Of a stretch of 64,000 nucleotides of DNA, positions 20,194-58,550 are shown in pieces. Within the stretch, counting starts at the first letter, position 1. Each line of letters opens with the position of its first letter. Under the pieces are notes generated by a model. That model was not told the origin of the DNA and searched no databases. It saw nothing but the letters and a program-made list of their open reading frames with translations. Where the stretch lies: the NCBI GenBank assembly GCA_002897775.1, contig BDTR01000053.1:1-64000 (forward strand). The letters are read 5' to 3'. This DNA comes from a bacterium BMS3Bbin08 (GTDB lineage Bacteria; Nitrospirota; Thermodesulfovibrionia; UBA6902; BMS3Bbin08). Position numbers and translations under genes: made by a program.

Positions 20194-20453
20194 GTCCTTT
20201 TTATGTTTATTTTCTGAAGAGCAGAAAGGATGGCTCTCTTTATATAGGTCAGACTAACAATATTGAAAAGAGATTACTAAGGCATAATAAAGGTTTAATA
20301 AAAACAACAAAAAGCAGGGCTCCTTTTGATGTTATATATTACGAAGAATATAATACAAGACGTGAAGCAATGCTTCGGGAAAAATATCTGAAATCTATAG
20401 GGGGCGTAAAAGAAAAGAAGACTATAATAAAGAAACTAATTACGGGGCTGTAG
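20169..20453 (+). CDS. GIY-YIG nuclease (URI type) between tRNA-Ala copies
   Basis: About 94 residues. Single GIY-YIG domain: YVYFL...LYIGQTNNIEKRLLRHN, catalytic Arg in RL and Glu in RREAMLREKYLK. The start is uncertain: ATG 20169, TTG 20190 (which would give LSPFYVYFLKS directly) or TTG 20151 are in frame. The 5' end overlaps the decayed tRNA copy. The stop codon TAG (20451-20453) is U8-A9-G10 of the intact tRNA-Ala, so gene and tRNA overlap by 10 bp. Similar small URI nucleases are often annotated near tRNAs; function unproven. Paralogous arrangement at 58204-58615. Confidence 0.85.
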   Translation: MTRRVERLSPFYVYFLKSRKDGSLYIGQTNNIEKRLLRHNKGLIKTTKSRAPFDVIYYEEYNTRREAMLREKYLKSIGGVKEKKTIIKKLITGL

Positions 20454-20519
20454 CTCAGTTGGGAGAGCGCTTGAATGGCATTCAAGAGGTCGTCGGTTCG
20501 ATCCCGATCAGCTCCACCA
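20444..20519 (+). tRNA. tRNA-Ala (GGC)
   Basis: 76 nt with CCA encoded. Acceptor GGGGCTG/CAGCTCC contains the alanine identity pair G3-U70. D stem GCTC/GAGC, anticodon stem CTTGA/TCAAG with loop ATGGCAT (anticodon GGC), T loop TTCGATC. The recombinase gene on the other strand runs into its 3' end. Confidence 0.97.
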
Positions 20520-22057
20520 TTTTTGATTTATAGCGGTGACCGCCTCGTTCCGATAAGTCGGAACTCGGACGGAACTATGCAGTTTATATAAATAATCCCA
20601 AGGTTTTTTAAAGTCAACAGACAGCGTGCCCGCCGCAAGGCGGCGGTTCGAGCCGATTTTCTGAAGGAATTCTTTCATTCCTCTATAGTCTTCCTGCAAA
20701 GCGAGATTCTCCGCTGAGTTAGCTTCTAAAATCCAGTTCCTTGTGAGTTCGAGCCAATGATTGCCTTTTCGCTCAAAATCAGATAGTTTCTCCTCAATGT
20801 CCTTTTTCTGCCCCATCAGAGAGTTTTTCTTTTCCTGAAATTCCTTGAGATTCAGGGTTTGATCAAGATAGGCGTCTGTAAGACGGTCTATCCTGGTTTT
20901 AACCCTGCTCAATTCCGCTTTCAGCTTTTGAGCGATAAGGTCTGATGAGTGGCGGGAGTCCTTTTCCCATGTTTCAAGCTTTTTAAGATACCTGTCACGC
21001 CATTTATCAGACAAAGAAACTTTTTGAATGTAATCCTTCACCTGATCAGCAAATGCATTGTCTCGCAAAAAGCCCTGATTGCACTTTTTGGTTTTGCTCC
21101 TCTTGGTGCATCGATAATAGACAAACTCACGCCCGCTTTTTTTGATATGACGCTCTGCTGTTATGGAATAGCCACACTCTCCGCACTGAGCAAAGTTCAA
21201 AAAGAGAAATGGCTTTTTATCAGGCTGTTTTTTGCGGGGCTTGCACTTGTCTTTTAACGTCTGTTGTATCCGATCAAAAAGTTTCTTTGAAATCATTGGC
21301 TTGTGGGTTCCCTCGTGTAGTTCGCCGCGATAAAGAAAATGTCCGTAGTAAAAAGGATTTTTCAAAGTATGTTCAATGGACGATAAGGCGAATTTCTTTC
21401 GGCTTCTTGCTCCAATCAAGCCAAGAGAAAACATTTTGTCGCAGATTTGGGTTAAGGTGTAATTTCCAGTGGCGAAAGCTTCTAAAGCTTTCTTTGTTTT
21501 CCTGAAAGTTTTAGGGTCAGGCTCAATCGTCCGTAATCTCGGCTCATTAAAATATCCTAAGGGTGCTCTTGCTGGAAGTTCACCGCGCCTTAATTTTTGT
21601 CTTATTCCCCTCCAAATATTCTCCCTCAAGTTGTCTGTATAGTATTTTGCCTGTCCGAATGCTACAGAGAGCATGAATTTCCCCTGTGGAGTCGGTTCAA
21701 ACCAGAATGTTGGGAATTTCAGGGATTGGATCTTACCTGTATCAACAAGATAAATGATTCGTCCGCCGTCTACAGAATTGCGAGCAAGTCTGTCAGGATT
21801 CCACGCCAAGATGCCCTGTCCCCCTGTTTTCTTTGTGAAAACAAAGAAGGGGGACCCTGTTCGATTTCAGATAACATCTGATTGAACACAGGGCGGCCCG
21901 GCTCTTTGGCTGTCTTGCTTTCAGTAAATTCTTTTAATACAAGAAGCCCTTCTCTTTTGGCGTATTCCCTTAATTCAGTTAACTGCGCCTCAATAGAGAG
22001 AATCTGCCGTTCTTCTTCCTCAGTGGACTTCCTGCAATAGATGAAATATTTAAACAT
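20508..22057 (-). pseudogene. Large serine recombinase, frameshifted by a palindromic insert
   Basis: The N-terminal part (22057 to about 21860) has the resolvase start YFIYCRKSTEEEERQILSIEAQ with the catalytic Ser. The rest (from about 21815) continues with ILAWNPDRLARNS, the recombinase domain, a Cys-pair zinc ribbon (CGECGY...CTKRSKTKKCNQG) and a coiled coil. The two parts are in different frames because of a 36-bp palindrome with a CCCTG duplication (21814-21859). The last codons (NQKWWS) and stop lie across the tRNA-Ala 3' end, which makes this the likely attachment end. It would have integrated the island at 20.5-40 kb. Confidence 0.85.
21814..21859. mobile_element. 36-bp palindromic insertion with CCCTG target duplication
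   Basis: Bases 21819-21854 form an imperfect palindrome (CCCCC...CTTTGTG...ACAAAG...GGGGG) flanked by CCCTG at 21814-21818 and 21855-21859. Removing insert plus one flank (41 bp) joins EIEQG to ILAWNPDRLA and restores the recombinase frame. Confidence 0.7.
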
Positions 22058-22072
22058 GGTAACCTCTCAGTT

Positions 22073-22522
22073 TTAGAACAAATCCTTCTGAGGACTCGCT
22101 TGCTTAACAAGAGCAGTAATTCTATTAATCAGCTTTTTAGCTGCTTCTAAAGAAGATTTGGCTTCTTGAGAAGTTATGTGATTTTTAGACTCATAGATGA
22201 AATCATGTCGTTGCCTTCTCATTCTGTTAAACCTGCCAGTAATACTTGAATACTCCTCACCAAGTGTTAATTTAGTAAATTCAACTATTGTTTTATGCGA
22301 TTGTTTTGCTGTCGGTAAATACCCCTTGGAATACATAAGTGCCCTACCAGCCCTGATCATCGAATGATAAGCAATAGTGTACGACCATGTTCGATCAATT
22401 TTAAGATTAGTCTCTGCGGTTTTTATATCTTTAAAAGATCTTTCTAATTGATGGGCTATTTGCTTAAAATCCGGTTTCTGTTTCTTTATAAGTTTATCCC
22501 TTAGAAATTTTTCGTAACTCAT
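22073..22522 (-). CDS. HEPN-domain protein (toxin-like) of an MNT-HEPN pair
   Basis: Product of 149 residues, helical, with the HEPN signature: a Tyr-rich helix (TWSYTIAYHSMIRAGRALMYSKGY) and RxxxxH near RMRRQRHDFIYE. Such proteins are RNases or AMP-acceptor toxins. It overlaps the nucleotidyltransferase gene upstream by 29 bp, the usual linkage of this toxin-antitoxin class. It lies directly upstream of the recombinase. Confidence 0.8.
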   Translation of the reverse strand: MSYEKFLRDKLIKKQKPDFKQIAHQLERSFKDIKTAETNLKIDRTWSYTIAYHSMIRAGRALMYSKGYLPTAKQSHKTIVEFTKLTLGEEYSSITGRFNRMRRQRHDFIYESKNHITSQEAKSSLEAAKKLINRITALVKQASPQKDLF

Positions 22523-57825: not shown

Positions 57826-58203
57826 TATATCACAAGGAAATTAAGAAAAAGCAAATCAAGGGGACTTAAAACCGCCCCTTGATTACACCGATCAAAAGAC
57901 ACGATTTCACAGATAGACACTTTTTACATCTGTGTCATCATAATAAATCTGTGTAATCATAAGATAGGGCGGGTCGCCTCTAGCTTATTGATTTAATTAA
58001 GAAATTTCCTTAAGATAAGTTTAGAATCTGGCGAGCCACTAAAGCGATTGCAGATCTCAGATTGTAGATTTTAGATTGAGTATAATAGTGAAAGTTTTAA
58101 TTTTGTTACAATTCACATTTCACAATTCTCGATTCACGATTAGGCCGCTGTTAGTATTTGGTTGTTAGCTATGAGCTATCAGCCATCAGCTATGAACTAT
58201 ATT
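57826..58203. repeat. Intergenic degenerate tandem repeats
   Basis: Contains CAGATTGTAGATTTTAGATTGAG, CAATTCACATTTCACAATTCTCGATTCACGATTA and AGCTATGAGCTATCAGCCATCAGCTATGAACTA. No gene. Confidence 0.65.
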
Positions 58204-58271
58204 GGGCGATTAGCTCCCCGACACTTCGGGGCAGGCACGTGGAGAGCGTCCCGATTTATCGGGAAGGTCGC
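58204..58271 (+). pseudogene. Degenerate tRNA-Val copy with arms replaced by palindromes
   Basis: Matches tRNA-Val positions 1-12 (58204-58215), then palindrome CCCCGACACTTCGGGG (58216-58231), then GGAGAGCG, then palindrome TCCCGATTTATCGGGA (58249-58264) exactly where the anticodon stem-loop should be, then AGGTCGC (58265-58271). The GIY-YIG gene starts 12 bp later. Confidence 0.75.
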
Positions 58272-58283
58272 ATTTATAAACCA

Positions 58284-58550
58284 ATGTATTACATGTATAT
58301 CCTCAAAAGCGATATAGATGGTTCTTTCTATACGGGACAGTGTCAAAATATTCAGGAGAGAGTTCAACGCCATAACCAGGGATATACTAAATCAACAAAA
58401 GCAAGAATACCCTGGCAACTGGTATATTATGAATCGTTTCGAACTCGCCGTGAAGCTATAAAGAGAGAGATACAAATTAAAAGGCAAAAAAGCCATTCAT
58501 ATATAGAAGAACTAATATCTCAAATATCAAATAATGGTACGGGCGATTAG
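58284..58550 (+). CDS. GIY-YIG nuclease (URI type) between tRNA-Val copies
   Basis: 88 residues from ATG 58284: MYYMYILKSDIDGSFYTGQ...RVQRHNQGYTKSTKARIPWQLVYYESFRTRREAIKREIQIKRQ. GIY-YIG core with Arg and the Glu of RREAIKRE; the second motif reads FYTG in place of YIG. The stop TAG (58548-58550) is U8-A9-G10 of the intact tRNA-Val, as in the tRNA-Ala element. Homologous to the protein at 20169-20453 but clearly diverged, so the two events are independent or old. Confidence 0.87.
   Translation: MYYMYILKSDIDGSFYTGQCQNIQERVQRHNQGYTKSTKARIPWQLVYYESFRTRREAIKREIQIKRQKSHSYIEELISQISNNGTGD

Follow-up and report, generated by a model that had tools for sequence, protein, structure and literature searches.

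Why do two small GIY-YIG nuclease genes of a Nitrospirota bacterium run into tRNA genes and take their stop codons from them? Both lie in the window analyzed here, nucleotides 1 to 64,000 of contig BDTR01000053.1 (bacterium BMS3Bbin08, assembly GCA_002897775.1). The window sequence confirmed that each frame stops at a TAG formed by tRNA positions 8-10 (20451-20453 and 58548-58550) and that AC directly precedes tRNA base 1 at both loci. Specifically, nuclease gene 1 ends in ...ATT ACG GGG CTG TAG, with its last base at 20453, and gene 2 in ...GGT ACG GGC GAT TAG, with its last base at 58550. Both tRNAs are uninterrupted according to ARAGORN, and both frames match PF01541, exceeding its cut-off of 22.6 bits (Table 1). 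A preliminary description of this DNA read the junction as invariant and as a sign of precise insertion with respect to the tRNA 5' end. Our analysis led to a different view: the overlap of nuclease and tRNA is a by-product of a larger arrangement, in which the nuclease gene is flanked by two copies of one tRNA, the first broken and the second intact.

Table 1. Features of the two nuclease loci in the 64,000-nucleotide window.
Feature	Position	Strand	Basis or remark
Broken 5' copy, tRNA-Ala(GGC)	20116..20193	+	Exact 12-mer and 10-mer matches to intact tRNA; palindrome scan
GIY-YIG nuclease gene 1	20190..20453	+	PF01541, 65 bits
Intact tRNA-Ala(GGC)	20444..20519	+	ARAGORN
Serine recombinase gene	20508-21809	minus	Overlaps 3' end of tRNA-Ala
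trkA (annotation inferred)	56482-57825	minus	Val element nearby
Promoter-like TTGATT-17-TAAGAT	57988..58016	+	Putative; read from sequence and compared with genus g11; weak consensus
Broken 5' copy, tRNA-Val(CAC)	58204..58271	+	Sequence matches to intact tRNA; palindrome scan
GIY-YIG nuclease gene 2, ATG start	58284..58550	+	PF01541, 52 bits
Intact tRNA-Val(CAC)	58541..58615	+	ARAGORN
Broken 3' copy, tRNA-Val	58630..58671	+	Exact 13-mer match to tRNA 3' end; palindrome

The preliminary description placed the unit beside the tRNA and missed the broken copy across the nuclease gene; the presence of this copy implies that the unit was inserted within a tRNA gene. The Ala remnant consists, in order, of GGGGCTGTAGCT, the hairpin TCCCGACAAGTCGGGA (20128-20143) with a further insert that replaces the D arm, and GAGCGCTTGA, the 5' strand of the anticodon stem. 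This layout recurs in G002, L105, L107, and L197, and comparison with homologues suggests that nuclease gene 1 likely starts at a TTG within the anticodon stem of the remnant. At the second locus, the 5' remnant reads GGGCGATTAGCT, hairpin CCCCGACACTTCGGGG (58216-58231), GTGGAGAGCG, hairpin TCCCGATTTATCGGGA (58249-58264), and AGGTCGC. The 3' remnant comprises CAGAGGTCG, a hairpin that substitutes for the T arm (58639-58654), and GCATCGCCTACCATTATT. The window remnants keep the pieces that join the arms (the acceptor strand, GAGAGCG, AGGTCG), and the D, anticodon, or T arms have given way to perfect hairpins, of which TCCCGATTTATCGGGA is an example. A TOTE-type conflict gene lies downstream of tRNA-Val.

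To place these loci among homologues, GIY-YIG genes were gathered from 41 genomes of the order, then from 47 of the order together with 396 of the phylum, and from named assemblies; a narrower family alignment used in the search for related loci yielded 24 loci. The tRNAs were listed using RF00005. The first sample was not selected for tRNA linkage, and later searches were queried with tRNA-linked proteins, so the proportion of linked genes should not be read as an unbiased frequency. A large number of the loci are from metagenome assemblies, and some loci break at the repeats. Members of the family occur in the Thermodesulfovibrionia (Nitrospirota), with further ones in the Bacteroidota, Ignavibacteria, and Desulfobacterales. 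Among 162 distinct GIY-YIG domains, 68 lie at most 160 nt from a tRNA on the same strand, 30 of them on its 5' side (layout 1) and 38 on its 3' side (layout 2); the other 94 have neither arrangement. Layout 1, to which both window loci belong, begins with the native promoter and continues with a 5' tRNA remnant, the nuclease, and the intact tRNA. Layout 2 starts from the intact tRNA, after which come a terminator, the nuclease, and a 3' tRNA remnant.

The broken copy proved to be a regular part of these loci. Requiring at least 11 of 12 matching bases (for layout 1, the first 12 bases of the tRNA with at most one mismatch), we found a 5' remnant of the same isotype upstream of the nuclease in 26 of the 28 layout-1 loci with enough sequence, against 0.1% in controls using other isotypes. 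A 3' remnant followed the nuclease in 17 of 37 layout-2 loci (control, <0.1%), a count that some remnants escape because their T arm has been replaced. At these loci, part of the target is thus duplicated on the two sides of the nuclease, as in regenerating elements resembling the mORFs discussed below. Hairpins of at least six pairs numbered 24 in the 26 layout-1 remnants versus 2.2 in shuffled sequences. G000 contains 38 copies of the hairpin TCCCGA-N-TCGGGA, nearly always with a loop of 4; the idea that such palindromes are confined to tRNA remnants was rejected, as just 10 of the 38 lie within 200 nt of a tRNA in the RF00005 list. Remnants also form tandem arrays, at L207 (about seven 84-nt units), L102, L200, L203, L186, L059, and L078, and the nuclease gene itself is present in tandem copies at L108 and L106. 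The regular upstream matches are not extra working tRNAs: in the arrays checked, ARAGORN found one intact tRNA per locus.

The junction is recurrent but varies more than the two window loci suggest; in 16 of 30 cases it departs in the way that the preliminary description had named as counter-evidence. Among the 30 layout-1 nucleases, those just 5' of a tRNA, the stop begins at tRNA position 8 in 14 and elsewhere in 16: at positions 12, 20, 20, 22, and 43 in five and before the tRNA (-2 to -96) in 11. Tabulated across homologues, the stop-to-tRNA distance proposed to be fixed ranges from -96 to 43, and AC before the tRNA, the supposed signature of insertion, occurs in only 3 of the 30. What survives of precise placement at the tRNA 5' end is the association itself, which is real and recurrent, and the finding that the duplicated tRNA part starts at base 1 in most members. 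A stop codon derived from a tRNA is commoner than had been supposed, though at varying tRNA positions. It lies inside the intact tRNA in 19 of the 30 layout-1 nucleases; layout-2 genes often end at a TAG in the D arm of the 3' remnant (GGTTAG, GGATAG), as in L010, L098, L103, and L106. At layout-1 loci of tRNA-Ala(GGC), the nuclease appears to start in the anticodon stem-loop of the remnant, at the ATG of AATGGC in L099 and L105 and at the TTG of the stem in L002, L040, and L107, and it terminates at the intact tRNA or inside it.

Of the 30 layout-1 nucleases, 22 are in the phase in which positions 8-10 are read as TAG. With one vote per protein cluster, the proportion was 14/21 at 70% identity (p = 0.002), 10/16 at 55% (p = 0.016), and 5/10 at 45% (p = 0.21). 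As the bias fades with wider clusters, the over-representation is suggestive of a tendency that partly reflects shared descent. Any frame that runs into such a tRNA in the matching phase is bound to end at U8-A9-G10, so this stop can be reached by chance. Selection on the stop codon alone, whereby U8-A9-G10 would be used in order that tRNA processing and nuclease translation compete, accords with the 22 frames in this phase and the 19 stops inside the tRNA. However, 11 of the 30 stop before the tRNA and the bias is not significant at 45% identity, and we regard this explanation as very unlikely.

The proteins themselves form a distinct group. Residues Y4, Y15, G17, R25, H29, and E61 are invariant in 22 subfamily members; from knowledge of I-TevI, we take these to be the catalytic residues. 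The family profile matches I-TevI 1mk0. In a tree of 154 domains, based on few columns and containing many weak forks, 63 of the 64 tRNA-linked proteins fall into a single clade of 79 rows (SH-aLRT 93), and the remaining 75 rows hold one, L001. Groups for Asn, Asp, His, Ser, Ala, and Val are visible in the tree, which requires at least 15 changes of isotype as compared to a minimum of 34 over 200 shuffles: nuclease lineages stay with one tRNA isotype. Most of the unlinked rows in the clade correspond to contigs that end inside a tRNA remnant, to tandem copies, or to tRNAs split by a group I intron; four (L213, L215 twice, and L229) lie elsewhere, between short inverted repeats. Values of dN/dS were 0.05-0.18 in computable pairs, and the protein is under purifying selection. 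A phage or plasmid origin was rejected, the corresponding searches having returned almost no matches. The window proteins matched no PHROG family, and only three phage records were found for the family at 1e-5, none from a T-even phage; these searches gave no relationship of the window proteins to phage SegB.

tRNA genes are the best-known landing sites of integrating islands, and the nucleases might be passengers of larger islands at an ordinary hot spot. The neighborhood of the window loci fits this view, with the serine recombinase gene overlapping the 3' end of tRNA-Ala and the TOTE-type gene after tRNA-Val. Island integration, however, normally reforms the 3' end of a tRNA, whereas layout-1 loci duplicate 5' parts. 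The duplicated unit also holds the nuclease alone, and each lineage in the clade keeps to one isotype. An island origin is thus disfavored, and we give it very little credence.

Orthologous sites that carry the nuclease in some genomes and lack it in related ones, as required of a homing endonuclease, were found. In G009, G014, and G025, trkA adjoins a tRNA-Val(CAC) without nuclease or remnants; in the window, this site is occupied. In genus g11, the tRNA-Val(CAC) of G016 is plain; G010 and G023 carry the identical tRNA accompanied by a remnant and a nuclease. The three genomes share the left flank, and the TTGATT-17-TAAGAT before the tRNA of G016 is kept before the remnant in G010 and G023; this empty site is defined by the left flank and the tRNA, as the right flanks of G016 and of G010 and G023 are not homologous. 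The same promoter-like motif that precedes the empty-site tRNA-Val in genus g11 stands at 57988..58016 in the window, where a promoter-consensus scan made no call. The proposal that the tRNA must be processed by RNase P gains support from one locus, where the native promoter-like site precedes both the remnant and the nuclease, so that the intact tRNA would need to be freed from the transcript of the nuclease, presumably through RNase P.

Other loci bear on the replacement of a resident tRNA, which is shown at two of them (L242 and L088). At L242 in G000, a divergent tRNA-Leu(CAA) sits between the pieces of another tRNA-Leu(CAA), which match the intact gene of the relative G003 (L076). At L088, a tRNA-Thr(CGT) lies between pieces with the acceptor of a tRNA-Thr(TGT), and at L079 a tRNA-Asp is flanked by a 5' and a 3' tRNA-Asp remnant. 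None of these loci has a nuclease now; their organization is what would be left if the nuclease were lost after tRNA replacement. A tRNA that appears foreign to the host is seen at L242 and L088, both without nuclease, and the occupied and empty tRNAs are identical in genus g11.

Such loci also bear on the possibility that the nuclease is a resident promoter of recombination similar to SegB, which cuts the neighboring tRNA gene and drives tandem duplication, giving fragments and arrays, and does not spread between genomes. The tandem remnant arrays and the tandem nuclease copies described above are compatible with this, and phage T6 provides a precedent (PMC13096335): SegB amplifies a tRNA-Tyr-segB unit by recombination that joins the 5' end of the tRNA with the 3' end of segB. 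Nevertheless, a resident enzyme of this kind leaves unexplained the isotype-faithful clades across several phyla, the empty and occupied sites, and the foreign tRNA inside a broken resident tRNA. Moreover, the arrays hold remnants rather than extra working tRNAs. We judge this explanation improbable, if the most plausible of the alternatives considered.

Based on anatomy and comparison of sequences, both window genes are probably mobile homing-endonuclease elements of tRNA genes that regenerate their target. Such a minimal mobile element would consist of tRNA sequence and the gene of a GIY-YIG homing endonuclease. This enzyme would cut the tRNA gene of one isotype within the tRNA, and the cut would fall in the anticodon, T, or D arm according to lineage. 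Repair from the copy bearing the element would then bring in the nuclease gene along with the severed portion of the tRNA, restoring a complete tRNA on one flank and leaving a truncated one on the opposite flank. For layout 1, we identified no promoter belonging to the intact tRNA itself; the nuclease and the tRNA would be transcribed together, and the intact tRNA would be cut out of the common transcript. Cleavage by RNase P at tRNA base 1 would remove the nuclease stop codon wherever it lies inside the tRNA. As this applies to at least 19 of the 30 nucleases, tRNA maturation and nuclease translation may compete. We counted against homing the fact that the rebuilt tRNA still holds the presumed target, being identical to the empty-site tRNA in genus g11. 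Homing gives no account of the hairpins that replace the remnant arms.

The window assembly (95% complete) contains one tRNA-Val(CAC) gene and two tRNA-Ala(GGC) genes. Each of the three is joined to a nuclease of this kind, so that the host seems to rely on copies borne by the elements. More tentatively, the elements could be of the 'cleave and rescue' type, in which the nuclease would destroy an essential tRNA gene and supply a replacement on which the host becomes dependent, its expression being coupled to tRNA maturation through removal of the stop codon by RNase P. We consider this possible but doubtful.

As far as the open-access literature could be searched, in which we found no description of bacterial tRNA nuclease elements, these genes represent an undescribed, widespread family of tiny nucleases encoded inside bacterial tRNA genes. 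Their homing would supply a mechanism by which essential tRNA genes are replaced and exchanged horizontally, and would account for the tRNA fragments and arrays in these genomes. The arrangement accounts for small GIY-YIG frames that run into tRNA genes, and it makes testable how the cell balances tRNA maturation against translation of the nuclease from the same transcript.

Several known systems share features with these loci. UPF0213-type GIY-YIG proteins (1zg2, 1ywl) are of similar size and are the best sequence matches among solved structures; they differ in that the tree rows outside the tRNA-linked clade are not linked to tRNAs (one of 75, L001). Group I introns also insert in bacterial tRNA genes, sometimes with homing endonuclease genes (PMC3984707, RF00028), and Rfam, run on L048 and L008, detected a true group I intron at each. 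Unlike the units described here, which rebuild the tRNA at the DNA level, introns splice out of RNA. Phage SegB cuts within tRNA genes, and tRNA-segB units are amplified through the homology of tRNA 5' end and segB 3' end (PMC13096335). In T4 and T6, SegB is likewise a free-standing GIY-YIG homing endonuclease beside tRNA genes, with homology between tRNA 5' end and nuclease 3' end and tandem amplification. In contrast to our loci, it resides in phage genomes, and the available portions of the sources report no isotype preference and describe no broken tRNA copy (PMC13096335, PMC2988022). In the mORFs of fungal mitochondria (Allomyces atp6; Glomus atp6, atp9, cox2, and nad3), the arriving endonuclease brings one end of the gene along, so that a hybrid gene is rebuilt and the native end is displaced (PMC3630166). 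The likeness is close: an endonuclease ORF (LAGLIDADG; GIY-YIG in atp9) lies within a gene with a duplicated end, and a working gene is rebuilt (PMC3630166). The mORFs occupy mitochondrial protein genes, whereas the loci studied here are bacterial tRNA genes with two mirror-image layouts and remnants whose arms are replaced by hairpins. It is the combination of a layout like that of the mORFs with a choice of target like that of SegB that leads us to read these loci as probable homing-endonuclease elements of tRNA genes.

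At each array locus in the table, a single intact tRNA adjoins a series of truncated tRNA ends, 5' or 3', repeated in tandem. Within the arrays the repeats are evenly spaced, with periods of 84, 105 and 67 nt, among others. In tRNA remnants, arms are swapped for a 16-nt palindrome, TCCCGA-N4-TCGGGA. The assembly G000 contains 38 copies of this palindrome versus 3 of the reversed pattern; the loop is 4 in nearly all copies, and 10 of the 38 lie ≤200 nt from a tRNA.

Elsewhere in G000, at L097 (G000:C45:107582-109655), the intact tRNA-Arg(CCT) gene is preceded, at a distance of some 630 nt, by an exact duplicate (40 nt) of its own 5' half. 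Read by eye, the intervening putative genes look to be of the HicA/HicB toxin-antitoxin type.

At the window tRNA-Ala(GGC), the 3' end is overlapped by that of a serine recombinase gene, possibly marking an island integrated at the same tRNA.

Positions of the features
Feature	Location	Strand	Remark
Palindrome	window 20128-20143
Palindrome	window 39629-39644
Palindrome	window 58249-58264
Remnant array	L207 900-1400
Remnant array	L102 1950-2290
Remnant array	L186		right side
Remnant array	L059 1840-2060
Remnant array	L078 1150-1376
Serine recombinase gene	window 20508-21809	-
DUF4062 gene and TOTE conflict-system primase-helicase	window 59243-63270	+	downstream of tRNA-Val
Group I intron	L008 1041-1307		within tRNA gene, GIY-YIG gene nearby
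Group I intron	L048 1792-2127		within tRNA gene, GIY-YIG gene nearby

Related GIY-YIG genes are also sited away from tRNAs, between or within protein genes, at L213, L215 (two copies) and L229, flanked by inverted repeats (CCCCGTTAGAAA...TTTCTAACGGGG); the L213 gene appears to interrupt an integrase-like gene. At the intron-bearing locus L048, the upstream GIY-YIG frame stops at tRNA positions 8-10, as do both nuclease frames of the window.
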